Positions 6,630-40,203 of a stretch of DNA of 63,237 nt are shown in pieces. The notes under the pieces are model-generated. The model had not been told where the DNA came from. It worked only from the letters and a program-made list of their open reading frames with translations, and searched no databases. The DNA is taken from assembly GCA_023248955.1 (NCBI GenBank), contig JAHFDP010000014.1, forward strand, positions 1 through 63,237, in the 5' to 3' direction. The position numbers and the translations under genes are program-made. This stretch comes from Deltaproteobacteria bacterium (GTDB lineage Bacteria > Myxococcota > Myxococcia > Myxococcales > JAHFDP01). Position 1 is the stretch's first letter; each line of letters begins with the position of its first letter.

Positions 6630-7748
6630 TCACACCAGCGTTTCGAGTAGGCGCAGCACGGGCGCGACGCGGATTCCTTCGGGCGTCTGGTAGTCCTGTT
6701 TACCCATCATGCAAACTTGCCACGCCGCCGTTTTCGGAAATCGCGCGTAGAGATACCGGAGGTTCTTGTCGACCTGCGTCTCGGCCCACTTCGCTTCCAC
6801 CAACATGATCGGTCGTCGATTCTCCGTGATGACGAAATCAACCTCGCGTCCGTCCGTGTCGCGAAAATAAGCCAGATCCACATCGCGACCGTGCGCATCC
6901 TGTTCGAAATGAACCCACTTGAGTAGGTGGCTCGCCACCATGTTTTCGAAGCGTTGCGCCTCGCTCGGAACGAGGCTCCAATCAAAATGGTAGTGCTTCT
7001 GTTCCTTTTTCACCGCGCGCAAACGTGAAGCGCCGATCGGCGGAAGACGAAAAATGGCGTAGAGCCGCTCGTAGATCCGGAGCCAATTCGCTACCGTTTT
7101 GTGGCTGACTTGAAGATCCTCTCGAAGAGCATTGATCGAAAGTGGCGAGCCGACCAATTCGGGTAACCGAAGCATGAGCAGTTCTAGATTGCCCAAATCC
7201 TGGACCTGCTCAACGCTGGTCACCTCTTCGCGCACGAGTCGGTTCCGATATTCACGTGACCAGCGCCGCGCCTCGGTTTCCGAACCTCCGAAGAACGGCT
7301 CCGGAAATCCGCCCAGGGTGAGCAACGCGCGCAGATCCGCCGCCGTTTTTACGCCCAGCTCTGCAGCGGAGAGTGGGTGTAGGCGCAGCAGGTGATAGCG
7401 ACCCTGCAAGGAGTCTCCGCCAAACCGATAGAAATCGAGCCTCGCGCTTCCGGTGACCAGGATGCGTTGATTCGCCCGGCGCCCGTCGTAGAGACCTTTG
7501 AGACAATTTCGCCAGCTCCGGTACTTGTGGATCTCATCGAAAACCCAGAGACTCCCCGCAGGAAGTTTTCGTTTCAGGATGCGCGCGCGGTCTTCGGCGA
7601 CATCCCAATTCAGATAGCCGCCGCTTCCACCGGGCAGCGCACGCGCCAGCGTCGTTTTTCCCACCTGACGCGCGCCACAGAGCAAGACCATCTTTCGCTC
7701 GAGATCTTGCAGGAGATGTGGCCGAAGGTATCGAGACTCCAAATCCAT
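6630..7748 (-). CDS. AAA ATPase with DUF4143 C-terminal domain
   Basis: The 372-residue protein has an N-terminal AAA_14 ATPase with Walker A GARQVGKTT near residue 26, a Walker B-like WVFDEIHKYRSW and sensor VTGSARLDFY. The C-terminal DUF4143 domain carries the nuclease-like signature DVDLAYFRDTDGREVDFVI...MLVEAKWA. Such ATPases are common accessory genes of unclear function, sometimes near toxin-antitoxin loci. TTG 7751 is also possible, but ATG 7748 is preferred. The upstream 90 bp is AT-richer than its surroundings. It converges on the carrier gene with a 3-bp gap. A fragment of a second family member lies at 57935-58198. Confidence 0.85.
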   Translation of the reverse strand: MDLESRYLRPHLLQDLERKMVLLCGARQVGKTTLARALPGGSGGYLNWDVAEDRARILKRKLPAGSLWVFDEIHKYRSWRNCLKGLYDGRRANQRILVTGSARLDFYRFGGDSLQGRYHLLRLHPLSAAELGVKTAADLRALLTLGGFPEPFFGGSETEARRWSREYRNRLVREEVTSVEQVQDLGNLELLMLRLPELVGSPLSINALREDLQVSHKTVANWLRIYERLYAIFRLPPIGASRLRAVKKEQKHYHFDWSLVPSEAQRFENMVASHLLKWVHFEQDAHGRDVDLAYFRDTDGREVDFVITENRRPIMLVEAKWAETQVDKNLRYLYARFPKTAAWQVCMMGKQDYQTPEGIRVAPVLRLLETLV

Positions 7749-23303: not shown

Positions 23304-23333
23304 GTTTTAGTCGGCCACAGAGCGGGATGTCAA
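23304..23333 (-). promoter_or_regulatory. Predicted promoter of the rplU operon
   Basis: On the minus strand a perfect TTGACA (23328-23333) is followed after 18 bp by TAAAAC (23304-23309, four of six for -10). A GC-rich leader of about 70 nt precedes rplU. The -35 overlaps the stop codon of the upstream fibre gene. Confidence 0.5.
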
Positions 23334-26300
23334 TAGCGGATCAGGTAGTTGAGCGTGGTGAAGGGCATCATGGTGTTGTGGGCGGTGCCACCTCCGTTAG
23401 TGTTAACAGTTATCCCGGTGAAGTTCGAATTGGTATTTGTGCTTCCGCCTCCGCTAATAACCGCGTTAAACGAACCAGACCCATAGATGTTTAGCAGGGC
23501 CATTCCGTGAGAATGTCCCGGATCGGTAACGCCGTGGTTGTGGCTGGGCATTTCGCCGATGATTAGCGTGTGCGTCTCCTCGCCGCTCGTTGTCGCCAAA
23601 TTATGTTGGGTGTGGCCTGTCGCGGTACCATTTCCCGAACCGATCGCGGTGCGACCGCGTAGGTCTGGCAAGTTAAACGTCGTGCTGCCGTCGCCAGCGC
23701 CGTAGTTCGTCGAAATCACTGCGAAGAGCGCCGCGTACGTCCCCGTCCCCGCCCGCGCCACCGCTGAACCATCGCACACCAACCAGCCAGCCGGTGCCGT
23801 CGACCCGGCATACGTGATCACCGTTCCAACGGGCGTCGGGTCCGAGGCAAGCGCCCACTGCGTGCCGTCGTATCTCATGATTTGCCCGGCTGTCGTCGGC
23901 GTCGGTACGGCCTTTCCTTGAAGTTTCCCGACCGTGGTCGCGCCATAGGCGCCGGTGACGTCGCCTGCGGCGTTGGGAAGGTCTCCACTCAATATCGCCG
24001 AGCTGGTCCAAACCGCGCCGTCGCTGCGCAAGTATTTCCCCGCGCTTCCCGCGGACGATAATCCGGTCCCGCCCTTTCCAACCGGAACGAAAAGCGGCGT
24101 CGGCTCCCATCGCGTGGTCGTGCCGTTGTACTGAAGAACCTCCCCATCGACGGAGCCTGCGTTCGAAACGGGTTGTCCCTGGATGGCGGTGACGGTGAGC
24201 GTGCCATTACCGGCCAGGGAGGCATCGCCGGAAATGGTGCGCGGCTGGGGATCTCCACCTGTGTTGCCGATAAGAACGTCCCCCGAGCCCATTCCAAGCG
24301 AGGTGACAGGCCCGGTGCCTTCACCAATGAGAACACCATGCAGACCAAGTGACACCGCTCCAGTCCCGCCATTCGCGACCGGGACGATGCCCAGCGAGAC
24401 GGTCGGCGTTGTTCCAGCGCTCACGATGACCGGAGCGGTCCCGAAGACAGAAGTGACCGGCGGGGTGCCGTTTGAGGCTGCGGTAAGCCTCCCCTTGGCG
24501 TCGACTGTGATGCTTGAATTGGTGTAGCTCGCGGCCGTTACGCCGCTCGCGGCCAGTGTCAGCGCACCGGTTTTCGCAAGCGTCGCGTCGCCGCCCACGG
24601 TCTGCGGTAACGGATCTGCGCCTGTCGATCCGACGAGGAGCTGGCCGTCAGTCATGGCCCCGGCGGGCGCAATCGCGCTAGCACCTTCGCCGAACAGAAC
24701 TCTGTGCGCTGCGAGCGTGGTCGCGCCGGTTCCGCCGTTCGCCACCGGAACGCTCGTCACCCAAATCGGCGATCCCGCGCCGCCGCTAGTCAACACCTGT
24801 CCCGCGGTTCCCGCGGCGCTGAATGCATAAGCGGAACCCGTGCCATACGAGAGGCCGCCATTTGTTGGCGCGGCATTGGTGTTGGTTCCGCCGTTGGCGA
24901 TTGGGATCGTGCCCGACAACGAGACCGTCGGCGTCTGGCCAGCGGACACGCTAATCGGCGCACTTCCCGAGACGGCGGTCACCGGCGCCGTTCCGTTCGA
25001 CCCCGAAGTCACCCGCCCCTTCGCGTCCACCGTGACCGTCGCGTTGGTGTAGCTCGCCGCAACCACGCCGGACGCAGCCAACGTCAGCGTACCCGTCTTC
25101 GAGAGCGTCGCGTCGCCGCCCACGGTCTGCGGGGACGGATCGGCGCCCGTCGCGCCTACAAGGATCTGCCCATCCGTCAGTGCGGCCGTCGGAACGAGCG
25201 GATTGGTTCCTTCTCCGAGCAGAACTCCATGCGCCGTGAGCGTGCTCGCACCCGTCCCGCCATTCGCCACCGGCACCTTGCCGGTCACCGACACGATCGG
25301 ATTTTGACCGGGCGTGATGGAGATGTTCGCGCTGCCGCTCACCGTCTGGACCGCGCTGCTCGTCGGTTCCCAGTCGTGGTTGACGTCGTTGTAGGCCAGC
25401 ACCTGGCCATTTGTCGGCGCCGTGCTCGCGACACCGCTTCCCTGGAGCGCCACCACTTTCACGCTTCCATAACCGCCGGTCACATCGCCCGATATATTCG
25501 GTAGATCGCCGCTGGCGATGGCGCCCGCACTCCAACCGCTGCCAGCACCGTTGCCTCGTAAGAACTGCGTGCTGGTCGGCACGGTGGTGATGCCCGTGCC
25601 GCCGTTGGCGATGGGCACTGTTCCGGAGAGCGAAATCGACGGATTCTGGCCGCCGCTCGAGGTGAGAACGCCTGTGGCGAAGACCGAGAGCACGCCCGTG
25701 TTGTTCAGCGTCGCCGAACTTCCGAGCGCAATCGCACCGCCGCCGGTGAGGCCGGTTCCGGCGGTTACCGTGACACCGCTGTTGGCGAGCATGGCGTTGG
25801 TGACACCGCCATTCGCGATGCCGATCGTTCCGACTCCCGTGATGGTTCCGCCGGAGAGTCCGTTGTTGGCGGTGACGCTCGTGACTGTGCCGCCGGCGTT
25901 GTTGTCCGCGCCGGGCAGCCATTTTCCGCTCACCACATCAAACTTCAGCACTTGGCCATTGGTCGGCGCCGTCGAGGACACACCGGTTCCTTGAATCGCC
26001 ACCACCTTCGCCGCGCCATACGCGCCCGAGAGATCGCCACCTTCTGCGCCAACCGCGAGCGTCGTCGTTCCACCGAGCGAAACCGCGCCGCCGCCGGTGA
26101 GACCCGCACCCGCATTTACGGTCACACCGCTGTTCGCCAACATCGTGTTCGTGACACCGCCATTTGCGATGCCGATCGTTCCGATTCCCGTGATGGTTCC
26201 GCCAGAGAGGCCGTTGTTGGCGGTAACGCTGGTGACCGTGCCTCCGGCATTGTTGTCCGCGCCGGGCAGCCATTTTCCGCTCGCCGAATCGAATTTCAGC

Positions 26301-27907
26301 ACCTGGCCGTTGGTAGGCGCGGCAGCAGAAATCGGAATATTTTGAATAGCTACCACCTTCGCCGCGCCATACGCGCCCGAGAGATCGCCACCTTCTGCGC
26401 CAACCGCGAGCGTCGTCGTTCCACCGAGCGCGACCGGGCCGCCACCCGTGAGGCCTGCCCCCGCGATCACCGTAAGGCCGCTGTTCGCGAGCATCGCATT
26501 GGTCACCGCGCTCGGGACCCAGCTCGACGTAGCGGTATCAAAACGAAGCGACTGATCAGCGGTGGGCGCCGTTGCCGAGACGGGCATGCCTTGGATTCCA
26601 GAAACCGTCGACGCCGCGTACGTTCCCGTCACGTCGCCCAAGTGCGTCGGCAGATCGCTCCGCTGGATGGCCGCGCTGGTCCAGGCCGCGCCGTTGCTGC
26701 GCAGGACGTTCCCGGCGTTGCCGCTGGTGGTAATTCCGGTACCGCCGCTTCCGACAGGCACGGTGCCCGAGAGTGAAATCGACGGATTTTGGCCGCCGCT
26801 CGAGGTAAGAACGCCTGTTGCGCCGACCGTAAGCACGCCGGTGTTGCTGAGTGTCGTCGTCCCACCGAATGCAACTGCGCCGCCTCCCGTGAGTCCCGCT
26901 CCCGCATTCACGGTCACACCGCTGTTCGCGAGCATCGTGTTGGTGATGCTCCCTCCAGTGATGTTGTTGCTGACGCTGCTGGGCACCCACTCGCTGTGCG
27001 CGGCGTCGAACGCGAGCACCTGCCCCGCTCCGATGGGGCCGGCGGCGATCGGTTTTCCGAGGATTCCGCCCACGTTTGCCGCCGCGCCCGCGCCGCCGGT
27101 GACGTCACCGGTGAGTGGCGAAATGGAAAGGTGCAGCGTGCTGCCGAGCGTGGCGGTGGCGTCGCCGGAAAGTCCATTGCCGTAGGCCATGGTGAGTGAC
27201 GGATTGGCCAACAGATCGTTTGTAATACCGCCCGGCGCGACGGCAACCGTGCCGCTCCCGGTGATGGTGCCACCGGAAAGTCCCTTGCCCGCGGTGATGC
27301 TGGTGACCGTACCGCCCGACGTCAGATCGGCCGCGCAATTCCAAGCCGCGCCGTCCCATTTGAGGAGTTGTCCGGTGGTGCAGGTCGAGCGCAACGCTAT
27401 CGTTTGTTTGGAATCGATCTCGATGCCGCTGCCCGCCGTGTAGAGCGCGGTAATCGATTTGCCGCCGACGGTGATGCTGGTGGCATTGACCGTGCCGCCG
27501 ACCACGTTCACTGCTTCGCCAGCGCGCACCGCGTAGGGCACCGATCCGACGTGCTGCCTCGGGACCAGCGGAACGTCGCTGCCGATCTGCACTTCGAGGT
27601 AGCGCTCGCTCCCGTCGAGTACACCAGCCGCAATCGCCACGCCGCCCGGCGCGGACGCGTCGCCCAAAAACGTCTCGTAGAAGCCGTCCGTCAGGCCGAT
27701 GTTTTTGGTCTCGCTCCAGAGCTCTTTGCCGTTGGTTTCGGAATCGAAAAGTCGAAACGTGATCGGTTGCACGCCGACCACTGGCTTGCCGTCGGAGGTG
27801 AGCAGCCGCCCTTGGTAGCCAAGCTTTTGCGGCACTTGGGCACGCGCCACGGAAGCGGCCAGGAGCAAAACCAGCGCGTATTTCAAACGATCGTGTTTGC
27901 AATACAT
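23330..27907 (-). CDS. Giant exported fibre-like protein with C-terminal phage tail-collar domain
   Basis: The 1525-residue protein starts at ATG 27907 after a strong AAGGAG site. It has a signal peptide (LKYALVLLLAASVARAQ) and an N-terminal domain of about 110 residues (KLGYQGRLLTSDGKPVVGVQPITFRLFD). Beyond that lie some 1200 residues of Gly/Thr/Val-rich beta repeats with recurring phrases such as GLSGGTITG, NGGVTNTMLANSGVTV, GGDLSGAYGAAKVVAIQ and VPVANGGTGATTL. From about 1360 a tail-collar domain follows (PVGTVITYAGSTAPAGWLVCDG, TFNLPDLRGRTAIGSG, GEMPSHNHGVTDPGHSHG, ending MMPFTTLNYLIRY). The fold is that of a trimeric fibre, but no other phage genes are nearby. It is probably a cell-surface fibre. 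Confidence 0.8.
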   Translation of the reverse strand: MYCKHDRLKYALVLLLAASVARAQVPQKLGYQGRLLTSDGKPVVGVQPITFRLFDSETNGKELWSETKNIGLTDGFYETFLGDASAPGGVAIAAGVLDGSERYLEVQIGSDVPLVPRQHVGSVPYAVRAGEAVNVVGGTVNATSITVGGKSITALYTAGSGIEIDSKQTIALRSTCTTGQLLKWDGAAWNCAADLTSGGTVTSITAGKGLSGGTITGSGTVAVAPGGITNDLLANPSLTMAYGNGLSGDATATLGSTLHLSISPLTGDVTGGAGAAANVGGILGKPIAAGPIGAGQVLAFDAAHSEWVPSSVSNNITGGSITNTMLANSGVTVNAGAGLTGGGAVAFGGTTTLSNTGVLTVGATGVLTSSGGQNPSISLSGTVPVGSGGTGITTSGNAGNVLRSNGAAWTSAAIQRSDLPTHLGDVTGTYAASTVSGIQGMPVSATAPTADQSLRFDTATSSWVPSAVTNAMLANSGLTVIAGAGLTGGGPVALGGTTTLAVGAEGGDLSGAYGAAKVVAIQNIPISAAAPTNGQVLKFDSASGKWLPGADNNAGGTVTSVTANNGLSGGTITGIGTIGIANGGVTNTMLANSGVTVNAGAGLTGGGAVSLGGTTTLAVGAEGGDLSGAYGAAKVVAIQGTGVSSTAPTNGQVLKFDVVSGKWLPGADNNAGGTVTSVTANNGLSGGTITGVGTIGIANGGVTNAMLANSGVTVTAGTGLTGGGAIALGSSATLNNTGVLSVFATGVLTSSGGQNPSISLSGTVPIANGGTGITTVPTSTQFLRGNGAGSGWSAGAIASGDLPNISGDVTGGYGSVKVVALQGSGVASTAPTNGQVLAYNDVNHDWEPTSSAVQTVSGSANISITPGQNPIVSVTGKVPVANGGTGASTLTAHGVLLGEGTNPLVPTAALTDGQILVGATGADPSPQTVGGDATLSKTGTLTLAASGVVAASYTNATVTVDAKGRVTSGSNGTAPVTAVSGSAPISVSAGQTPTVSLSGTIPIANGGTNTNAAPTNGGLSYGTGSAYAFSAAGTAGQVLTSGGAGSPIWVTSVPVANGGTGATTLAAHRVLFGEGASAIAPAGAMTDGQLLVGSTGADPLPQTVGGDATLAKTGALTLAASGVTAASYTNSSITVDAKGRLTAASNGTPPVTSVFGTAPVIVSAGTTPTVSLGIVPVANGGTGAVSLGLHGVLIGEGTGPVTSLGMGSGDVLIGNTGGDPQPRTISGDASLAGNGTLTVTAIQGQPVSNAGSVDGEVLQYNGTTTRWEPTPLFVPVGKGGTGLSSAGSAGKYLRSDGAVWTSSAILSGDLPNAAGDVTGAYGATTVGKLQGKAVPTPTTAGQIMRYDGTQWALASDPTPVGTVITYAGSTAPAGWLVCDGSAVARAGTGTYAALFAVISTNYGAGDGSTTFNLPDLRGRTAIGSGNGTATGHTQHNLATTSGEETHTLIIGEMPSHNHGVTDPGHSHGMALLNIYGSGSFNAVISGGGSTNTNSNFTGITVNTNGGGTAHNTMMPFTTLNYLIRY
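25817..26518 (-). repeat. Tandem 351-bp module duplication within the fibre gene
   Basis: Two near-identical units, 25817-26167 and 26168-26518, are offset by exactly 351 bp (117 codons). Landmarks recurring at this spacing include ACCACCTTCG (26001 and 26352) and GATGCCGATCGTTCCGA (25817 and 26168). Both encode GGDLSGAYGAAKVVAIQ and NNGLSGGTITG modules, so the fibre shaft has lengthened by in-frame duplication. Confidence 0.8.
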
Positions 27908-29512: not shown

Positions 29513-31072
29513 TCACCCCAACATTCGCGCCGCGGCCACGTAACTCCACGCCATGATTGTCTCACTCGGATCCACCGACACCGCCGTCGGGAACGTGCTC
29601 GGATCGCACACAAAGAGCCCGCGCACCGCGTGGCACTCGCCGTGGTTGTTCACCACGCTTGTCGTCGGATCTCGGCCCATGCGGCACATGCCAGCCGGAT
29701 GCGGCGCGGGGAACATCATCGACCCGGGCCCAATGTCGATGGTGTCGATCTTGGCGATTTCCCGGTCGTCGCGCACGCGCGTACCGAGCGGGTCTTGCAA
29801 GATCACCTCGCGCGCGCCGGCGGCTAGCATGATTCGCGCCTGCGTCTTCATCGCATCACGAAGCATCATTTTATCAAGTTCGGCCAGCGCATAACTCCAT
29901 ACGGGTTGGCCCTCATCGTCGAGCTTCACCGCGCCCTTGCCGGCGTCGTCCGCCCAGGAGATGCAGCTGCCGATGCGGTGTGCCTGCTCCATCAACGCGC
30001 GGTGATCACGGCCAAAGCCGGGCAGCATCGCGGCCAGCGTCGCCGGCGGAAGCTGATTGGGATGCACGAGATAGCCGCCGCCAAAGTAACGGCCGGTTTT
30101 GTCGAATTCGGGAAGACGCTTCTCCATCACGCCGGTGCCGGCGGGGATATTGCGCCACATCACGATGTCTTCGTCGAAGAGCGCATAGGTTTGCGCGCAG
30201 GGATTGAGCTGGAGATTTTTGCCGAGCTGTCCCGACGGGTCCGGAATTTTCGAGCGCAGCAGCAGCGGCGCCGTGTTGAAACCGCCAGCCGCGGCAACCA
30301 CGATTTTCGCGCGCACGCGCAGTGCGTGGCCGCTCGGTTTGTTGGACCGCCGATCGAGAAACCGTCCGCGCACACCGATGGCGCGTCCGTTTTCCACCTC
30401 GATCGCCCACGCTTCGCAATCGGCGAAAATGCGCGCGCCCGCCGCAAGCGCGGCGGGGATGTGCGTCACGAGCTGGCTCTGCTTGGCATCGTAAGCGCAG
30501 CCCTGCATGCAGTAGCCCGAGCCGACGCAGTTCTTGCGCGCCTGTAAGACGCGCTCAGTCTGCAGTCCGAGCTTTCGCGCACCGGCGTTGAAGAGCTGAT
30601 TCATCCGATTGAGCCGTTCATCCTCCGCGGGATGGACGTTCAGATCACGCTCGATGCGCTCGAAGTAGGGAAGCAGCTCGTCGTACGAATGATTTTCGAC
30701 GCCATACTGCGACGCCCATTTTTCACAGCGATCTTTCGGCGTGCGCCAGGTGTCCGCCCAGTAGTGCACCGATGCGCCGCCAACGTTGTTGCCGTAGGTG
30801 AGCGCGATCTGTCCGTCGTCGGTGGCGTCGAGCCCGCGGCCGCCGTCGATGCGCGCGAACATGTCGTCTTCACGCTGGTCGAAATCGCCGCGATCCATTA
30901 AATAGAATCCGCCGCGCTCGAGCAGCAGTACGCTTTTCCCCGCGCGTGCCAACTCTTTGGCAACCACCGCGCCGCCGCAGCCAGTGCCGATGATCACCGC
31001 GTCCACGGTTTCCGAATAGTCGTGATCGACCTTGTCGTATTCGAGCACCTGCGATTGGAGTGCCTCGTCCAT
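29513..31072 (-). CDS. GMC-family FAD-dependent oxidoreductase
   Basis: The start is ATG 31072, sharing one base with the preceding stop (TAATG), and gives 519 residues. An FAD dinucleotide fold (VDAVIIGTGCGGAVVAKELARAGKSVLLLERG) lies at about 23-52. The Cys-containing GSGYCMQGCAYDAKQS is seen in gluconate-dehydrogenase-like and alcohol-oxidising GMC enzymes. The C-terminal signature is APHPAGMCRMG followed by LFVCDPSTFPTAVSVDPSETIMAWSYVAA, with the catalytic His in HPAG. It oxidises an alcohol or sugar, substrate unknown. The partner is the subunit-3-like protein encoded just upstream. Confidence 0.88.
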   Translation of the reverse strand: MDEALQSQVLEYDKVDHDYSETVDAVIIGTGCGGAVVAKELARAGKSVLLLERGGFYLMDRGDFDQREDDMFARIDGGRGLDATDDGQIALTYGNNVGGASVHYWADTWRTPKDRCEKWASQYGVENHSYDELLPYFERIERDLNVHPAEDERLNRMNQLFNAGARKLGLQTERVLQARKNCVGSGYCMQGCAYDAKQSQLVTHIPAALAAGARIFADCEAWAIEVENGRAIGVRGRFLDRRSNKPSGHALRVRAKIVVAAAGGFNTAPLLLRSKIPDPSGQLGKNLQLNPCAQTYALFDEDIVMWRNIPAGTGVMEKRLPEFDKTGRYFGGGYLVHPNQLPPATLAAMLPGFGRDHRALMEQAHRIGSCISWADDAGKGAVKLDDEGQPVWSYALAELDKMMLRDAMKTQARIMLAAGAREVILQDPLGTRVRDDREIAKIDTIDIGPGSMMFPAPHPAGMCRMGRDPTTSVVNNHGECHAVRGLFVCDPSTFPTAVSVDPSETIMAWSYVAAARMLG

Positions 31073-31674
31073 TATTTGGTCCACTCCAACTTGGTAATGA
31101 GCGCGCTGTCCGCCGGCGGCGGCGCCGGGATTTTGACGTGCGGTCCCTCGTAGTGAACCGAATCCCAGGTGCGATCGTCGCAGTAGTAGAAAAACACCGC
31201 GAGTAATTTCAGCCCCGAAAAGGCCTGCCGCTCGAGCGAACCGCCGGTGGACATGCGGCGCAAATAGGCATCTTGATCTTCCGAATCGCGCGCCGAAAAA
31301 CGCGTCGGCGACAGGTGCATCCAGCCGCCATACTCGAGCAGCCACAAGGCGTCTTTGACATCGGCTTGATATTTTGTGGAGTGAAAGAAGAGCTCTTTGT
31401 CGATGCGCTCAGCCAAGCGCGCGTCGCGCACGGTCAAGTGGCCTGACTCGTCGGGAAGAACCCGCGCCACGAACGCGGAGAGCACAGCCAGCTCTTTGGG
31501 CGTGAGCGTAAGCGGTGCCACGTTCGGCGGTAGGAGCCGCAAATAGTGCGCGCTGCAACCCGACATGAGGACCGACGAGCCCGCGGTCAGCGCGGCGCCG
31601 GTGGCCGCGGATATTTTGAGAAAACCACGGCGGCCGAAGGGGGAACCGGCACGCGGCAGATGGTCGAGACGCAT
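31072..31674 (-). CDS. Gluconate 2-dehydrogenase subunit 3-like protein, Tat signal
   Basis: The 200-residue protein opens with a twin-arginine signal (FGRRGFLKISAATGAALTAG) followed by a lipobox-like LMSGC. The mature domain (LTPKELAVLSAFVARVLPDE...) fits the gluconate 2-dehydrogenase subunit 3 family. In characterised complexes this subunit escorts the folded FAD subunit through the Tat system. The 1-bp overlap with the GMC gene supports a complex. Only 26 bp separate it from the divergent lipoprotein gene at 31701. Confidence 0.8.
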   Translation of the reverse strand: MRLDHLPRAGSPFGRRGFLKISAATGAALTAGSSVLMSGCSAHYLRLLPPNVAPLTLTPKELAVLSAFVARVLPDESGHLTVRDARLAERIDKELFFHSTKYQADVKDALWLLEYGGWMHLSPTRFSARDSEDQDAYLRRMSTGGSLERQAFSGLKLLAVFFYYCDDRTWDSVHYEGPHVKIPAPPPADSALITKLEWTK

Positions 31675-31700: not shown

Positions 31701-34094
31701 ATGCGAAAGATTCTCCTCGCCAGCCTGTTCATTTTCGGGTGTCGTCACATCGACGACGTTCCCGACGCGACCACTTGTGACGTGACTTTTACCGATACCG
31801 GCAGCGTGCGACTTTTCGTGATCGGTCACCACCTGTCGCTCGATGACGCGGAGTCGTACGACGCGTTTCGCGTCTCGTTCCAAAGAGATCTCGCGCGTGT
31901 CGCGCCTTGTCGCTCGGCAACGCGGCCGAACCTCGTTGCCTTTCCCGAAGACGCAGGGCTCGCGGCTTGGTTCATTGGGCGGCGAGCGATGTTTGCGCGC
32001 GGCGCCCGAAGCGTGGGCTCGGCCATGAACGCGATGTATGCCGGCTACTATCGCGCCGTCGACGCCTACCGCGCGCGCTTTCCCGGCATCTCCGTTCCGC
32101 GAGGACTAACGCTGGCGCTCGGGGATACGGCGTGGCGCGCGATGGAATTCACTTTCGGCGCCCTGGCTAAGCGCTATGGCGTCTGGATCACCACCTCCGC
32201 GAATCTGCCCTACGCCACGCGCTCGCACGACGGCGACACGGTGGCACTGCTCGGCGATCCCGACGTCGACGCCAGCGAAGGCGCGTTCGTCGCGGACGGA
32301 CCAGACTGCTTCAACGCGGCGCTGCTCTATGATCCGACAGGCGCACTGGTGGCGCGCACGGACAAAGTTTTTCTCACCGACACCGAGGAGAAAACACTCG
32401 ATCTCTCCGCCGGCCGCCTCGACAATCTCGCACCGTGGGTCACCCCGTTTGGCAACGTTGGCGCGGCGATTTCACGCGACGCGTTTTACGCGCCCTACAT
32501 GCAGCGGCTCGAGGATCTCGGAACGGAGCTGGTCATTCAGCACGAAGCATCGCAGAGCTGGATCGGCGATGGCAACGAATGGCGGCCTGAGGTTTTCCTG
32601 GCGTCGGGCTGGAGTCACACACAGAAATACGGAGGACTTCGCTTCTCCGCCGCACCGATGCTAAACGGAAATCTCTTCGACGTGCTCTTCGACGGCCAGA
32701 TTTGGATTGCGCACAAAGCGGCACCGACCGACACGCTTGGCGGATTTATCGGCAACCCTCTGCTGCCCGGATTTCTCGCAGTGGGACCGTGGACGTTCGA
32801 GGATTCCGGCGCGGCACTTGCTCTTTCTGATCGCCGCGCAACGTTGCGATCGCTCGGGACGCGACTATCACCGGGAGGATCAGCGGCTGGCAGCCAGATC
32901 GCCAGCCACCTCGGCGCTGATCTAACGCTTACGGGTGAAACGCACGCGGCGGCCGCGAAACCGGTGATTGGATCTTTGGCACGGCCGCTTTCGCCGACAC
33001 CGCAAGGCAACCAGACCAACGTCGTGGCCGCGTATGACAATGTAGGTCGTTTGTATTCGGCATGGACGGACGCGCGCGCCGGGACGCCCCAAACGTTCTT
33101 CGCCTACTCGGACGACGATGGCCATAGCTGGAGCGCTGCGCGGGCCTTGGATGCCAGCAGCGCCGCGCAGCGAAGGCCTACCATCGCCGCGGGAAATGCG
33201 GGCGCGGTGATCGTGGCCTGGCAAGAGACTCATCAAGCGGAGGAGATTCGCGTCTTCGCTTCCCGCGACGGTGGCGTTCATTTCCTCTCGAGCCAGGTGG
33301 AACCGGTGGGCTCGGCACAGTGGGAGCCTTCCGTCGCGCTCTCCACGAACGGACTCGCGGCGATGGCCTGGACTGATTTTCGCGAGGGGCGAGCGCCCAA
33401 GATTCGCTTCTCCACCTCGAGCGACGGCGTGACTTGGTCAACTTCGCAGCGCCTCGACACATCGATTGGAGAGACCACCAAGTCCACGGGCATGCAGGTG
33501 CAACCCGCGCTGATTCGCACGCCGGCTGGATTCGCGGCGGCTTGGCTCGACTACCGCGCGCGCGATTGGCAAGTCTGGGCAGCCGTCGGAACTGGAAAGA
33601 CGTTTGGATCCGCCGAGAACATCACGCCACCCTCCGCGACCGAGATCTTGGCCAGCGATCCGCGCTTGGCCGTGTCCCCCGAGGGCGCGGTGATGGTGGC
33701 GTGGGACGATTTGCGCGCTCGGCGAGGACATCATGATGTGCGTGCCGCGGTGCACAGTCCAGCGGGTGGCTGGATCCCGGTCGCGCTGCTCGAGGGTGGC
33801 GCGGACGATGGCACGTTCGTGAGCCGCTTTCGGCCGGATGCCGCGTATTTGGGGGCGCGATTTCGGATGGTTTTTTCGGACCTCACGCCCGGGAAGAGCG
33901 CGATCTACGCGGCGACCGTGGTGCCTGGCGATCTTTCCAAGGTGACGATGACGCGGTTTGACGATACCGCCACTGCGGCGAACGTGATGACGCGGCCGCG
34001 CGTCGCGGTGCGTGCGGACTCGGCGCGCGGGGTGGTGGTGTTTGAGGATGATCGAGAGGGGTGGCGACGAATATATTCAATGGAGTTGCGCTAA
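31701..34094 (+). CDS. Lipoprotein fusing a nitrilase-fold domain to sialidase-like beta-propeller repeats
   Basis: The 797-residue product starts MRKILLASLFIFGCRH, a lipoprotein signal with Cys14 lipidated. Residues of about 35-300 follow the carbon-nitrogen hydrolase pattern: NLVAFPEDAG (Glu83), LVARTDKVFLTDTEE (Lys222) and VGAAISRDAFY. In the last motif the catalytic Cys is replaced by Ser258, so activity is doubtful or altered. Residues of about 420-797 carry Asp-box-like repeats of sialidase propellers (YSDDDGHSWS, ASRDGGVHF, STSSDGVTWS, WLDYRARDWQVW). It is probably anchored in the envelope, facing the periplasm or outside. The 3' end overlaps the convergent gene by 4 bp. Confidence 0.7.
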   Translation: MRKILLASLFIFGCRHIDDVPDATTCDVTFTDTGSVRLFVIGHHLSLDDAESYDAFRVSFQRDLARVAPCRSATRPNLVAFPEDAGLAAWFIGRRAMFARGARSVGSAMNAMYAGYYRAVDAYRARFPGISVPRGLTLALGDTAWRAMEFTFGALAKRYGVWITTSANLPYATRSHDGDTVALLGDPDVDASEGAFVADGPDCFNAALLYDPTGALVARTDKVFLTDTEEKTLDLSAGRLDNLAPWVTPFGNVGAAISRDAFYAPYMQRLEDLGTELVIQHEASQSWIGDGNEWRPEVFLASGWSHTQKYGGLRFSAAPMLNGNLFDVLFDGQIWIAHKAAPTDTLGGFIGNPLLPGFLAVGPWTFEDSGAALALSDRRATLRSLGTRLSPGGSAAGSQIASHLGADLTLTGETHAAAAKPVIGSLARPLSPTPQGNQTNVVAAYDNVGRLYSAWTDARAGTPQTFFAYSDDDGHSWSAARALDASSAAQRRPTIAAGNAGAVIVAWQETHQAEEIRVFASRDGGVHFLSSQVEPVGSAQWEPSVALSTNGLAAMAWTDFREGRAPKIRFSTSSDGVTWSTSQRLDTSIGETTKSTGMQVQPALIRTPAGFAAAWLDYRARDWQVWAAVGTGKTFGSAENITPPSATEILASDPRLAVSPEGAVMVAWDDLRARRGHHDVRAAVHSPAGGWIPVALLEGGADDGTFVSRFRPDAAYLGARFRMVFSDLTPGKSAIYAATVVPGDLSKVTMTRFDDTATAANVMTRPRVAVRADSARGVVVFEDDREGWRRIYSMELR

Positions 34095-34708
34095 CCCCCG
34101 AACCGATATCCAATCCCCAGCACCATCCCGAACGCCCCGCGCCCAGCACTTAGCCAATGCGGCGCTGAATTCGTCACATCGTACCCAGGATCAAACCAGC
34201 GCAATTCCGCCTGCGCGCTCCACCGCGTCCAAAGAATCTGCTCGCCGATCGCCGTTGCCCACGAAAATCGCCGGTCCAAAAAGTCTCGCTGCACCGTCAT
34301 CGTCGCGTAGGAAAGCCACCGCCCGAAGAGCCAACTCGCCGTCGCGGACAGATCCGCGTCGTTGGTCATCCCCGAGCGAAAATCCGTGAATGCATAAACG
34401 CGCGCACCCAGCGTCAGCGCGGGAATCCGCCCAATTTGCGGCAGCGCCAGCCAATCTGCATCGATATCGAATCCGGCGACTTTGTAATAGAGCGTGGTCA
34501 GGTGCGCGTGCGCGCCGACGTCCCAGCGCTCAGCGAAGCCGTAGCGCGCGCCCAGCGTGGAGAGCGGAAGTGGAACCGGCACCGAACCGAGAAGAACCGC
34601 GGGTCCGCCGACGGCCAGCTCCGCGGCGATGATGTGGTGCTCCACCGGACGCACCGCCGTCACGTGGCCGCAGGCGACGAAGAGCAGCGAAACGATCGCG
34701 AAACGCAT
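34091..34708 (-). CDS. Predicted outer-membrane beta-barrel lipoprotein
   Basis: From ATG 34708 (GTG 34714 is also possible) the 205-residue protein has a lipoprotein-like signal (MRFAIVSLLFVACGH). The mature part is made of alternating amphipathic strands (LGARYGFAERWDVGAHAHLTTLYYKVAGF...LGARVYAFTDF) and ends with GIGYRFGG, as barrel proteins often do. No specific family is recognised. It stands alone next to a relict insertion element. Confidence 0.55.
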   Translation of the reverse strand: MRFAIVSLLFVACGHVTAVRPVEHHIIAAELAVGGPAVLLGSVPVPLPLSTLGARYGFAERWDVGAHAHLTTLYYKVAGFDIDADWLALPQIGRIPALTLGARVYAFTDFRSGMTNDADLSATASWLFGRWLSYATMTVQRDFLDRRFSWATAIGEQILWTRWSAQAELRWFDPGYDVTNSAPHWLSAGRGAFGMVLGIGYRFGG

Positions 34709-34753
34709 CCGCACGACGGTAGCGCAAATCCGCCACCGCAGTTAGCGCCTTAG

Positions 34754-34920: not shown

Positions 34921-37900
34921 CTACTTCAGCATGAACTCCACCCGCCGGTTGCGCGAGCGTCCCTCTTCGGTCGTGTTGCTGTTGATGGGTCGCTCGGAAC
35001 CAAATCCCTTCGCCGTCAGCCGCGCGGCGACAACACCACGGCTGACCAGATAGTCACCCACCGCCTCGGCGCGCTCATGCGAGAGCTTTCTGTTGCGCCG
35101 GGGGTTGCCGACATTGTCGGTATGTCCCTCGATGCTCACCTGCAGTTTGGGATTCTGCTGGAGCACCTGCGCCACTTGGTCCAGGAGCTCGAACGAGTCA
35201 GCCAGAATGCGCGCGCGCGCCGCGGCAAAATGGATGGGGTGCCGCAGGTCGATCGATTTCTGTGTCAACATGACGATGGGCGGTGGCGGCACGGTTGGCG
35301 CGACCGTGACGGGACGAAGCTGGAAATCGTGGACCAGGGTCTCTCCCGCCTGCAGCGCGATGTCGCTCTCGCGCGTGATGTAGCCAGTGGCCGCGACCCG
35401 CACAGCGTAGCGCCCCGGCACCAGACGTACGTCGAATTCCGGATTGGCGGAGAGCTCTCGCGGCGGAAGCTCGCTTCCGGATAGTCGGAGCTCGGCCTTC
35501 ACGGGATGGTCATCGAGATCGGTGACGTGACCGCGGAATCCGCCGTCGATGGGAGCGACCGGCGGCGAGACCGCAGGGCATTGGTTCGCCGCCGCTGGTT
35601 CGAGCCTCTTCACGGGTGGCGTGGGCAGGGGCGCTTCCATCTTTGGCAAGGGCATCGTCGCGGGTTCACCTTTGACGGATGCGCTTCTCGAAGGGGCGCT
35701 CGTGAGCGCGCCTAACCGGATCTGATAGCCGGCCAGAACGAGCGCCGCGCCGCTGCGGTAGCCGCTCGGTGCTTCGAACCCCGCTGCGAAAAACATGAGC
35801 TCGAGTCGCCCTCCGGGCACCGAGACACGAACGCCGCCGCCACCGCCACCGCCGGCCACGCGGTGGTTATCCACGTTGTGGACGAGCCCCCGAAGCTCGA
35901 CGAAGGGCCGAAAATCGCCGGGGAACAGCTCGTAGGAGGCAAACATCATCCCTCCGGGGTGGCGACCCAAATCAGTTCCCACTCCAAGATCGAAAAACGC
36001 AAGGGGCGCGTAGGTGGCGGCGAGCTCGACACCCCAACGGCTGCCCAACACCTCGTCGAAGAGACCCGTGCCAACGTGAAGCTGATCGAGCGTGCTCGCT
36101 TGCGCAGACGCGGGTCGCAACACGATCGCCGCCACCAGCGCGGCGACGATCGCATAGATGCGTCGCCGCCTCCATCGCCTCAGATTCAGAAGTAGGAGCA
36201 CCAGGAGCGAGGCGCCATACTCGGAGGCTGGGGCGCTCGAGCAGGACCAGCCAAGGATGCCGGCCGGCGGCGGTGCTGGCACCACACAGGCTGCGCCCAT
36301 GCATTGGCCGGCGTCGCATTCGCTGTCCGCGCAACAACCGGTTTGTGGCACACAGAACGTGGCGCCTGGACACACTTTGTGCGCGTCGTCGCAGGTGCAG
36401 GTGCCGCCGCCGCAGAGACCGCCCACGCCACAGTCCCCATCGGTGCAGCAGGCGCTCGAGAGAACGCAAGCATTCTGCGCTGCGCACCACTTGTGGCTCT
36501 TGTCGCAAACGCAGGCGCCGCTCGTGCAGACCTGGTTCGCACCGCATTCGCTGTCAGCACAGCAGGCGCTCAGTGCCACGCAACCTGCCGAGCCTGGACA
36601 CTGCTTGTGCGCGCCGTCGCAAGTGCAGGTGCCGCCGCCGCAGAGACCGCCAATCCCGCAGTCGCTATCGGTACAGCAGAGATTTTTCGGGATGCAACCG
36701 TTTTGCGTTGCACAGAATTTGTGGCCGGCGTCGCAGACACAGCTGTTCGCCGAGCAGATCTGTCCAGCACCGCACTCGTTGTCGTCACAACAGCCGCCAA
36801 GCGCCACGCAGGTCGATGATCCCGGGCAACTCTTGTGCGCGTTATCGCACGCGCAGGCGCCACCCGTGCACACCGCGCCCTCGCCGCAGTCGCCATCGAC
36901 GCAGCACTGGTTGTTCGGGATGCAGGCGCCCTCTCTCGCGCAGAGCTTGTGCGTGCTGTCGCACACGCAAGCGTTGTTGGTGCAGACCTGGTTGGCACCG
37001 CAATCGGCGTCGACGCAGCAGGCGCTTTTGGCCACACAGACCTGCATGGCGGCGCACTGTTTGTGGTCGGCATCGCAGACGCAGATGGCTGCCCTGCAGA
37101 CGCCACCTGCGCCGCAATCGGTATCCGCGCAGCAAGCGACCGAGGGGACGCACCTAGTTTGTGCTCCGCACCATTTGCGGGCGCCGTCGCAGCTGCAGGC
37201 ACCGCCGACGCAGGTGCCGCCGGGGCAATCCGCATCAATGCAGCAGCCGTTCGAGTCAACGCAGCTGTTTGGGCCGGCGCAGAGTTTGTGGGAGTTGTCG
37301 CAGCTACAGGCGCCGGTGCTGCACGTTCCGCCGGCTCCGCAGTCGCCGTCGCTGCAGCACCTCGCGCTCGAGATGCAGTCGCCGCGGCACGCTCTGGTGC
37401 CTGACACGCAGGTGCATGCACCTCCCACGCAAGTCGCCTTCGCTCCGCACTCTGCATCGTCGCAGCAGCCGTTCTGCGGTGCGCACACCGCTGAGTTCGG
37501 GCAGGCCTTATGCGTGGCGTCGCAGAGGCAGGCGCCGCTGACGCAGATTTTGCTGGGGCCACAATCGCTGTCTACACAGCAGGCGCTCGCGTTGATGCAG
37601 ACATTTGCGCACTGCCGGAAGGCCGCGCCACAAGCTGCCGGCACGCGGATCGGCTGCGCGCTGGAAAAGGCGCCGCCCACGCCGATGCGCAACCAGTGCC
37701 ACCCCGGGTTGAGCGAACCCGGCACCGTGACGGTAGCCGTGGTCGGCGTCCAACTTGAAACGGGCGCCACCGTCAGCTGGCGGTTGTCGCCGCGCTCGAA
37801 GAGGGCCTCGGGCACGTTGGCAACACAGGCCTGCTGGTTGCCGCTGGCACCCTCCGAGAGGCCGCCAAAAAGCGACCCAGTCAGATTGAGGGCAGTTCCA

Positions 37901-40068
37901 CGCGCCGCGGTGGGCAACGGACCGTCGAGCGTGGGCGTCCGCACCAGGGCGGTGCCGAGGCCTTCGTCCCAAAGCTCCGTGTAGACAGCGGGAACGAATT
38001 TGCAGCTCCTGGTGTCGCTTCCCGAGCAGGAGAGAAAAGCGTCACCTCCGGCGGAGAGAATGAGGTTGTTGGGCAAAAGCAGGGCAGTGTGGAAGGCCGT
38101 CTGGTAGATGCCGCTGCCGCCGGGAAGGGTCGTCGTCGAAACGGGATCGTAGAGCACGCCCGACGATTGGGCGACCGGATAGCCAGCGACCGGCGAATTT
38201 ACGAGACCACCCGCCACCAGCACCTCACCACTCGGCCAGAGCGTCGTCGACTGGCCGGGGAGCTCGCTGATGCCGCTGGGGCTCCAGCTGTTCGCCGCCG
38301 GGTCGAAGAGGTTGGCGCCGAAGAGGACTTTTCCACTCGGAAGGAGGAGCGGCGGTGCCGAGATCTTCGCGCTCGCTTGCAATGTCCAGCTGCCGAAAAC
38401 CGGATCCCAGATCTCCGCGGGCACCGGCTGCTCGGTCGCGGAGGAGCCCGCCACCAGCACCTTGCCATTGGTGAGCAGCACGGCGCCATGCCCCCATCGC
38501 GCCTGAGTGAGCGAGCCGCTGGCCGACCAGGTTCCGCTCGCGGGGTCATAAATTTCGCAGCGGTCGAAGCTGCTGGAGGGCGTTACAGCGTCGCGCCCGC
38601 CCGAGGCCAAAACGCGCCCGTCGCCAAGGAGCGTCGCCGCGTAGCCTTGTCGCGGCGTGCCCATGGAGCCGGTCGCTGTCCAACTGTTCGTCGCGGGATC
38701 GTAGAGCGAAGCCTGACCGCCGCCGGTGACGAGCACTTTTCCAGTGAGGAGCAGCGTGGCCGTGGCGGCGACCGGGCTGCGGCCCGCTGGCGATACACTC
38801 AATAGAATCGGATCGTAGAGGTCAGCGACGTAGGGCGGCCCGGTGAAAACCCTGGTTGCCCAGTCGAAATCGCCACCCACGAGCAGCACCTTGCCGCTCG
38901 GCAAGAGGGTCGCCGTCGGATGTTCGCGCGCGACGTTCATCACGCCGAACGTTGCCTGCGAGGCGCTGGCGGGCGAATTTGGGAAAAAAATTTCGGTAGA
39001 GGCCGATGGTGCGCCGAAAAAGGTGCCGCCCGCGATCAGGACTTCGCCGGAAGCGAGCAGGGTGGCCGTGTGGTGCGACCGAACGGAGGAGAGCGAGGCT
39101 CCGGGAAACCAGAGGCCGCTCACCGGATCGTAGAGCTCGGTATCGCCGAGATCGCCACCGTTGGTGCCGCCCGCGACGAGCAGCTGACCATTGGGGAGCA
39201 GGGTCCCCGAGTGTGCGGCGCGACCGTTGGTCATGGGGAAGGCCGGGACCCAGCCGCGACGCGGGTCGTAGATCTCCGCGCTCGCCAGCGCGCCGCTCGA
39301 ACCCTGTCCGCCAGCGACCAATACGCGCTGATCTTCGAGGAGGGTAGCCGTGTGCTGTACGCGCGCCATGGCCAGGCTACCCGCGCGGCTGAACGTGAGG
39401 CTCTTGGCGTTCCAAAGCTCCGAGGTGGCGAGCGGTAGGCCCCCATTCGTGCCACCGGCGACGAGCACGCCACCATCCGCAAAGAGCGTCGCCGTGTGAA
39501 AGGCGCGTGGCGTCGCCATCGTTCCAGCGCTCGTCCATTTTCCGGTGGCGGGCGTGTAGATTTCAGCAGTGGCGACGCCCCCGCCCACAACGAGCAGACG
39601 CCCATCGGTCAGAAGCGTGGCAGTGTGGCCGGCGCGCGCCGATTGCATGGCCGCGGCCGACGACCAGCGCCGCGTCGCCGGGTCATAGAGCTCAGAGCGA
39701 GCCATGCTGGCGCCGCTGGTGCCGCCGACGCTGAGCACTTGTCCCGTCATCAGGAGAGTGGCGGTCTGCTCTGCGCGGCCGTCCGCCATGCTGCCAACCG
39801 AGGTGAACTGTCCGGTGGCGGGGGAGAAGAGCTCCGCGGAGGCGAGAAAGGGGCCGCCGCTGCAACTGCCCGAGGCGTTGGCGCAGCCGCCGGCCAGTAG
39901 GACGGTTCCATCCAGCAGCGTTGTTGCGGTTTGCTCGAGTCGCGCGGCTGCCATCGTGGCGCCGCTTTGCCACTGCAGCGCCGCCGCACGTGAGGAGAGT
40001 CGCGCGGGAAGAGGAGGCACCGAGTTGGTGCAGGCCCAGACGAGCAGCACCCAGGCGATCTGTCGCAT
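34921..40068 (-). CDS. Giant kelch / Cys-rich / MYXO-CTERM / OmpA fusion lipoprotein
   Basis: ATG 40068 (MRQIAWVLLVWACTNS) gives 1715 residues with a lipoprotein signal. Residues of about 40-720 are kelch or galactose-oxidase-like blades (TATLLDGTVLLAGG, ATGQFTSVGSMADGRAEQTATLL) plus an IPT-like segment. About 830-1260 are many 6-Cys units (CCVDSDCGPSKICVSGACLCD). At about 1270-1305 there is a MYXO-CTERM-like tail: SCSSAP, a Leu-rich helix and RRWRRRR. A second signal-peptide-like segment (IYAIVAALVAAIVLRPASAQA), a barrel-like region, a carboxypeptidase-regulatory-like domain (GGFRGHVTDLDDHPVKAEL) and a C-terminal OmpA peptidoglycan-binding domain (VSIEGHTDNVGNPRRNRKLSHERAEAV) follow in frame. 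It is probably a surface protein; the fusion is unusual. Confidence 0.8.
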   Translation of the reverse strand: MRQIAWVLLVWACTNSVPPLPARLSSRAAALQWQSGATMAAARLEQTATTLLDGTVLLAGGCANASGSCSGGPFLASAELFSPATGQFTSVGSMADGRAEQTATLLMTGQVLSVGGTSGASMARSELYDPATRRWSSAAAMQSARAGHTATLLTDGRLLVVGGGVATAEIYTPATGKWTSAGTMATPRAFHTATLFADGGVLVAGGTNGGLPLATSELWNAKSLTFSRAGSLAMARVQHTATLLEDQRVLVAGGQGSSGALASAEIYDPRRGWVPAFPMTNGRAAHSGTLLPNGQLLVAGGTNGGDLGDTELYDPVSGLWFPGASLSSVRSHHTATLLASGEVLIAGGTFFGAPSASTEIFFPNSPASASQATFGVMNVAREHPTATLLPSGKVLLVGGDFDWATRVFTGPPYVADLYDPILLSVSPAGRSPVAATATLLLTGKVLVTGGGQASLYDPATNSWTATGSMGTPRQGYAATLLGDGRVLASGGRDAVTPSSSFDRCEIYDPASGTWSASGSLTQARWGHGAVLLTNGKVLVAGSSATEQPVPAEIWDPVFGSWTLQASAKISAPPLLLPSGKVLFGANLFDPAANSWSPSGISELPGQSTTLWPSGEVLVAGGLVNSPVAGYPVAQSSGVLYDPVSTTTLPGGSGIYQTAFHTALLLPNNLILSAGGDAFLSCSGSDTRSCKFVPAVYTELWDEGLGTALVRTPTLDGPLPTAARGTALNLTGSLFGGLSEGASGNQQACVANVPEALFERGDNRQLTVAPVSSWTPTTATVTVPGSLNPGWHWLRIGVGGAFSSAQPIRVPAACGAAFRQCANVCINASACCVDSDCGPSKICVSGACLCDATHKACPNSAVCAPQNGCCDDAECGAKATCVGGACTCVSGTRACRGDCISSARCCSDGDCGAGGTCSTGACSCDNSHKLCAGPNSCVDSNGCCIDADCPGGTCVGGACSCDGARKWCGAQTRCVPSVACCADTDCGAGGVCRAAICVCDADHKQCAAMQVCVAKSACCVDADCGANQVCTNNACVCDSTHKLCAREGACIPNNQCCVDGDCGEGAVCTGGACACDNAHKSCPGSSTCVALGGCCDDNECGAGQICSANSCVCDAGHKFCATQNGCIPKNLCCTDSDCGIGGLCGGGTCTCDGAHKQCPGSAGCVALSACCADSECGANQVCTSGACVCDKSHKWCAAQNACVLSSACCTDGDCGVGGLCGGGTCTCDDAHKVCPGATFCVPQTGCCADSECDAGQCMGAACVVPAPPPAGILGWSCSSAPASEYGASLLVLLLLNLRRWRRRRIYAIVAALVAAIVLRPASAQASTLDQLHVGTGLFDEVLGSRWGVELAATYAPLAFFDLGVGTDLGRHPGGMMFASYELFPGDFRPFVELRGLVHNVDNHRVAGGGGGGGVRVSVPGGRLELMFFAAGFEAPSGYRSGAALVLAGYQIRLGALTSAPSRSASVKGEPATMPLPKMEAPLPTPPVKRLEPAAANQCPAVSPPVAPIDGGFRGHVTDLDDHPVKAELRLSGSELPPRELSANPEFDVRLVPGRYAVRVAATGYITRESDIALQAGETLVHDFQLRPVTVAPTVPPPPIVMLTQKSIDLRHPIHFAAARARILADSFELLDQVAQVLQQNPKLQVSIEGHTDNVGNPRRNRKLSHERAEAVGDYLVSRGVVAARLTAKGFGSERPINSNTTEEGRSRNRRVEFMLK

Positions 40069-40203
40069 GGCTAACAATCCTAGCGCGAAGGGGGCTCGCG
40101 CGCAGATTTCCGGCTGCAGTTCGACATCGCGCGAGCGGCAAGCCGTCCGTCGCAAGCGGGTGCACGTCACGAAAGTGAGGCAGTTTTTTTGCTATCCAGT
40201 TCT

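Follow-up and report, generated by a model that had tools for sequence, protein, structure and literature searches.

The window analyzed here, a stretch of 63,237 nucleotides, is one contig of a 3.83-Mb draft genome from the order Myxococcales, and it carries a gene for a 797-residue protein in which a lipoprotein-like signal is followed by a nitrilase-type domain, a linker, and a seven-repeat beta-propeller (Table 1). This fused gene is met at its 3' end by a convergent gene for a smaller, barrel-like protein, and on its other side lie two oxidoreductase-related genes.

Table 1. Coordinates of the fused gene, its site residues, and its neighbors in the window.
Feature	Position	Strand	Basis or occurrence
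Fused ORF, 797 aa, ATG start	31701..34094	+	lipoprotein-like signal, nitrilase-type domain, linker, seven-repeat propeller
Signal peptide with lipobox-like IFGC (Cys14 at 31740-31742)	31701..31742	+	read by eye
Cys26-Cys70 stretch	31776..31910	+	only invariant cysteines after lipobox, 10/10 fused proteins
Nitrilase-type domain, residues ~35-345	31803..32735	+	profile matches; 53-62% identity, window protein vs 9 orthologues
Glu83 (FPED), catalytic Glu position	31947..31949	+	10/10 fused proteins
Lys222 (TDKVFL), catalytic Lys position	32364..32366	+	10/10 fused proteins
Glu230, second Glu position (Lys + 8)	32388..32390	+	10/10 fused proteins
Ser258 (TCA; AAISRDAF), Cys nucleophile position	32472..32474	+	aligned with Cys of Nit2 and ordinary nitrilases
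Seven-repeat beta-propeller, residues 426-797	32976..34091	+	AlphaFold2 model, structure matches, repeats by eye
Asp-box motifs of repeats 1-3, residues 470-477, 521-528, 573-579	33108..33437	+	motif reading
Convergent neighbor, 207 aa, lipobox-like Cys15-Gly16, barrel-like C-terminus (YRFGG), no Pfam family	34091..34714	-	beside fused gene
GMC oxidoreductase, likely start ATG at 31072	29513..31072	-	Pfam
Gluconate-2-dehydrogenase-subunit-3-like, Tat-type signal, meets GMC start at base 31072	31072..31674	-	Pfam, TIGR01409

The lipoprotein signal proposed in the preliminary description finds some support in a lipoprotein-like N-terminus, as read by eye and with the proviso that IFGC is not a textbook lipobox. 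A Cys likewise closes the hydrophobic N-terminus of the other fused copies (also by eye), several of which have atypical boxes, such as TLAC in Corallococcus. The two invariant cysteines that follow, Cys26 and Cys70, may possibly form a disulfide. Export of a nitrilase-type domain had been called unusual, which now seems less so, as two genomes from other classes of the phylum encode nitrilase-type proteins, three in all, that are lipoprotein-like and lack a propeller. Lnt and the vanins are also known exported members of the nitrilase superfamily. Vanin/pantetheinase, an exported Cys enzyme of animals that is not known to have a propeller, is matched weakly by the profile of the fused nitrilase half (E about 0.5).

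Among the 145 genomes searched from the order, 11 carry the fused gene, and searches of the class (147 genomes) and the phylum (195 genomes) returned the same 11. Two of the 11 copies sit at the end of a contig, one of them stopping upstream of the Ser site, so the site counts below refer to 10 proteins; L012, L015, and L044 were dropped as propeller-only matches. Beyond the phylum, coverage consisted of a peptide-pattern scan together with plasmid, viral-contig, and PDB searches. Two narrow peptide patterns run against genome contigs placed relatives in 4 of 89 stretches (three from named Corallococcus species, the fourth from a Myxococcaceae MAG), a scan that is no census. The contigs of these named homologues coincide with those of genomes assigned to the window's order, on which ground we take that order to be Myxococcales. 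Possible vectors of spread were sought among plasmids, with no match, and in PHROGs, with none at E 0.01; viral contigs held no relative, a single 18-residue match being left unused, and a sequence search of the whole protein against solved structures gave one chance-level match. No earlier report of a nitrilase-propeller fusion was found in the open-licence literature, which misses most subscription papers. A superfamily member with Ser for Cys is already in print (BCG_2279c, in the portion of PMC3850990 available).

Against Pfam, the window protein matches CN_hydrolase at 0.0015 and BNR_2 at 5.8e-6, both short of the curated cut-offs. When the fused nitrilase halves are aligned, each of the 10 sequences is matched by CN_hydrolase (PF00795; E up to 1, best 2.4e-5), and a profile built from this half finds Nit2 (2w1v) at 3.7e-5, with 'aisrda' opposite 'GICYDM'. 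When compared using hhalign, in which each E-value is that of a single comparison, the fused family aligns with 21 ordinary nitrilases of the order at a probability of 97.3 and E 1.9e-11, with Ser258 on their Cys, and with its single-domain relatives at 99.6 and E 1.5e-24 over 295 columns; two of these relatives were checked against Pfam and both are above cut-off. The proposal of a nitrilase-type domain is upheld by these alignments, on which the domain is kin to the nitrilase (carbon-nitrogen hydrolase) superfamily. Its fold is one that we infer, because AlphaFold2 gave no confident model of residues 1-425, all under pLDDT 50 in the full-length prediction. For the nitrilase half alone, 381 of 400 residues were under pLDDT 50 (mean 30.9), from an alignment of five rows, which is too few.

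Glu83, Lys222, and Ser258 are all where the preliminary description had placed them, and Glu230 is present as well. The eleventh, partial fused copy covers only Glu83 among the site residues and has it. The spacing from Lys222 to Glu230 equals that of K335 and E343 in E. coli Lnt, as given in the part of PMC3850990 consulted. Ser258 is kept in 10/10 fused copies that reach the site, encoded by TCA, TCG, or TCC, and is followed directly by an invariant Arg259-Asp260. We rejected a sequencing error as the explanation, since the same residue recurs in nine further genomes and is encoded by three different codons overall. Takeover of the nucleophile role by another cysteine is unlikely, as beyond the lipobox the sole invariant cysteines are Cys26 and Cys70, both of which lie away from the Lys and Ser motifs in the sequence. 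Because Ser replaces the catalytic Cys in every one of these 10 copies, we do not file the fused protein as a nitrilase enzyme.

To place this residue among its relatives, the site was read in 62 places with one row each: 11 fused, 49 single-domain, and 2 lipoprotein-like (L094 and L095, both G158). L009 and L010, which gave no tblastn match, are both included in the 62. The single-domain proteins of the order (e.g. L005 and L013) are alignable with the fused protein over nearly the whole nitrilase-type domain and keep Glu-Lys-Glu, but they have no signal peptide in those read, no propeller, and an insert of 10 residues following the nucleophile motif. At the nucleophile site, 31 of the 49 have Cys and 18 have Gly, and all 18 Gly proteins retain Glu-Lys-Glu. 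Therefore, retained Glu-Lys-Glu is no proof of catalysis, and we rejected the argument that its conservation proves an active enzyme. Homologues with Cys at this position had been named in advance as evidence against the proposed reading; there are none within the fused family, whereas Cys is indeed found in the next relatives, both in the single-domain proteins and in L103.

In the tree, which omits L026 (it stops before the Lys) and L049 (it starts after Glu83), the Ser proteins form one clade (support 100/99; all 200 bootstrap trees), although its attachment point is uncertain, the tree program having flagged that long branches come together at that place. The 18 Gly-for-Cys proteins with Glu-Lys-Glu intact belong to genus group g24 (L009-L011, L075-L079, L081-L090). 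Two Cys proteins (L072 and L080) are set among them, with support of 93/76 at the deciding fork, and so Cys was either lost twice or regained once there. By parsimony, the Gly state at this site would reflect at least two losses of Cys within the phylum. The three lipoprotein-like proteins (L094:801-2060, minus strand; L095:683-1876, plus strand; L103, minus strand) resemble the fused protein in their lipobox-like N-terminus, nitrilase-type domain, and lack of an insert after the motif, but differ in having no propeller and in carrying Gly, Gly, and Cys, respectively, at the site. In L094 and L095, parts of Glu-Lys-Glu are gone as well.

For the propeller half, the model has block-mean pLDDT values of 41-91, starting at residue 431 and for the most part >65. 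The Asp-box repeats noted earlier in this half are present as two strict motifs (470-477 and 521-528) and one looser motif (573-579), and shuffling the propeller half 2000 times never gave two strict motifs. The label 'sialidase-like' holds only in part: the Asp-boxes and the sialidases found, along with arabinanases, among the Foldseek matches to the propeller model are in its favor, whereas seven repeats are counted by eye and, among solved structures, CylK is matched most clearly. Sialidases have six blades, and their catalytic residues are an Arg triad, a Tyr/Glu pair, and an Asp. In the VIA comparison, the best match was the CylK C-terminal domain (7fh7; Z 35.8, rmsd 3.0 over 346), followed by a group of glycoside hydrolases at Z 28-29 (BACINT_00347, BACCELL_00856, and BT3686, GH145; 5mum Z 29.3, rmsd 3.3 over 345; with 4irt, titled putative neuraminidase, in the same group), a rhamnose-glucuronate lyase (Z 27.5), and the Photorhabdus PLL/PHL lectins (Z ~25-27; PLL4 8q82 Z 26.7, rmsd 3.0 over 303). 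Integrin and WD40 propellers scored Z ~25, only 1-2 Z beneath the lectins, so that at most CylK and the hydrolases stand clear of them, CylK the most plainly. The 50 VIA matches listed include no classical sialidase, an absence that excludes nothing. The CylK, glycoside hydrolase, and lectin propellers superpose on the model, yet share only ~9-15% identity with it, and none is joined to a nitrilase-type domain, judged by their titles. A shared propeller fold shows no function.

The convergent neighbor adjoins the fused gene in all nine loci examined, the window included, and in the seven neighbors compared Cys15 and Gly16 are invariant and no Pfam family is matched. Since the two genes are convergent, they are not one operon. 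The neighbor's family is wider than that of the fused gene (25 of 145 genomes) and therefore also occurs without it. The nine top scores of a neighbor profile (334-382 bits) come from the nine genomes whose fused gene is complete, with the next at 251 bits, a gap that is partly by construction because the profile was built from 7 of those 9 neighbors. Of the 16 Corallococcus-group (g21) genomes with any match in the search of the order, five carry the fused gene, and the neighbor is found in those same five. A sixth g21 genome, G081, has only the first 96 positions of the neighbor and is missing the fused gene; at its junction (L170, ~7070-7078), the middle of the neighbor is joined to a point ~10 bases before the fused-gene start as placed in G045. 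The simplest account is a single deletion that took out the fused gene together with the neighbor's second half. From the five shared genomes and this junction, we can conclude that the pair comes and goes together in g21.

On the other side, the GMC and subunit-3-like genes are beside the pair in two of the nine loci (the window and G140 = L053), within the flanks examined. TIGR01409 is above cut-off for the gene with the Tat signal, and its two Pfam matches are just short of theirs. In L053, the GMC protein is 66% identical to that of the window and a barrel-like gene is directly downstream, while in L165 and L166, which are without the fused gene, a distant GMC gene (28%) lies ~2.5 kb from a barrel-like homologue. 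Elsewhere in the window, a 1749-residue ORF (34921-40170, minus strand) runs from kelch repeats through Cys-rich repeats to a Cys-hydrophobic-Arg stretch that resembles a cell-surface sorting tail (by eye), and continues with a second signal-like stretch and with CarboxypepD_reg and OmpA domains; this ORF may be a genuine fusion or two genes that have become merged. A 1525-residue protein (23330-27907, minus strand) has a weak match, short of cut-off, to Bdello_MAT_N (1.4e-6), the N-terminus of a mosaic adhesive trimer fibre protein family.

The reading that we favor, to which we give a probability of roughly one half, is that the fused protein is a ligand-binding pseudoenzyme lipoprotein of the envelope that works with its barrel-like neighbor. 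It would be anchored in the cell envelope, probably at the outer membrane, with the nitrilase-type domain keeping its pocket and Glu-Lys-Glu framework while the thiol nucleophile is swapped for Ser. This domain would then bind an amide-, ester-, or nitrile-like ligand without useful turnover, the seven-bladed propeller that follows would probably serve as a further binding module, and the adjacent barrel-like protein would be the partner. A site kept without its nucleophile does exist in this family, as the 18 single-domain Gly proteins demonstrate. In favor of this reading are also the Ser held in 10/10 copies of one clade, the invariant residues clustered about the site, the lower dN of the nitrilase half, the Lnt C387S and BCG_2279c precedents, and the gene pairing with its joint loss in G081. 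On the other side stand the low-confidence model of the nitrilase half, the invariant Ser that a serine enzyme would show too, the pairs with higher omega in that half, and a neighbor family that also occurs without the fused gene.

What a serine does at this position is known in part from Lnt. In the E. coli enzyme, the C387S variant formed the acyl-enzyme, whereas Lnt activity was undetectable (PMC3850990, as excerpted), and in a structural study the Ser variant is described as 'low activity' and its Ala counterpart as inactive (PMC10313180, likewise in excerpt). The one natural precedent that we found in the literature searched, BCG_2279c (Rv2262c-Rv2261c), is like the fused protein a nitrilase-superfamily member with Ser for the catalytic Cys, but it is a homologue of Lnt, whose family are integral-membrane acyltransferases, and no propeller is described for it in the accessible text (PMC3850990). 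According to the same text, BCG_2279c did not substitute for Lnt in M. bovis BCG with the four lipoproteins that were examined, and its authors left other roles possible (PMC3850990). Taken together, these accounts, as far as the excerpts go, indicate that Ser there can attack but turns over poorly, and for this reason we rank the binding pseudoenzyme first and a working serine enzyme second. In the latter, which we consider possible though the less probable, Glu83 and Lys222 would activate Ser258 and the resulting O-acyl-enzyme would be hydrolyzed or transferred in the envelope, as by an amidase, esterase, or transacylase. The four site residues and Arg259 and Asp260 are invariant in 10/10 copies, although these share only 47-56% of their residues with the window protein, and the residue retained is Ser rather than Ala or Thr, which preserves a hydroxyl nucleophile as a working enzyme would. 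The acylation of Lnt C387S and the 'low activity' ascribed to the Ser variant of Lnt (PMC10313180) are also in its favor; the lack of detectable overall activity in Lnt C387S counts against it, as does the equal retention of Glu-Lys-Glu in the nucleophile-less Gly relatives. More doubtful is the proposal of a serine-nucleophile lineage at the cell surface, in which Ser258-Arg259 with Glu83, Lys222, and Glu230 would form an O-acyl-enzyme, with the seven-bladed propeller aiming it and an outer-membrane barrel lipoprotein as its partner.

The missing catalytic Cys and the lack of a confident model for the pocket (pLDDT <50) would also suit a nitrilase-type half that is a mere structural spacer, carrying the propeller and having a ligand-free pocket. 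We regard this as unlikely, given that the nitrilase half is the more conserved and that its invariant residues are enriched near the site residues. Identity of the window protein to nine orthologues (one partial) is 53-62% in the nitrilase half vs 37-50% in the propeller. When five Corallococcus-group copies are compared pairwise, all 10 pairs have a smaller dN for the nitrilase half than for the propeller, dS is also lower there, and omega in the nitrilase half is 0.11-0.23, below that of the propeller in 8 pairs and above it in 2. Across 10 proteins, 119 positions of the 395-residue nitrilase half are invariant. Within five residues of the four site residues, 22 of 44 places (a count that takes three places twice) are invariant vs a mean of 13.3 over circular shifts, and 7 of the 395 shifts, including the unshifted one, reach 22. 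Judged by these patterns, the region around the Ser258 site is under selection. Finally, a domain that lacks the nitrilase fold altogether and owes its motif likeness to chance is very improbable, for although the window protein alone is short of the Pfam cut-off and there is no confident model, the hhalign alignments to both ordinary nitrilases and single-domain relatives, the Pfam matches of two of the latter, and the recovery of Nit2 by the family profile all argue against it.

Enzyme families often leave members that bind but do not cut. Within one phylum, a single position has three outcomes, namely Cys in enzyme-like proteins, Ser in the fused protein, and Gly. Cys, Ser, and Gly at this position are a natural series with which to ask whether serine can do the work of a nitrilase or marks a step to a binding protein.
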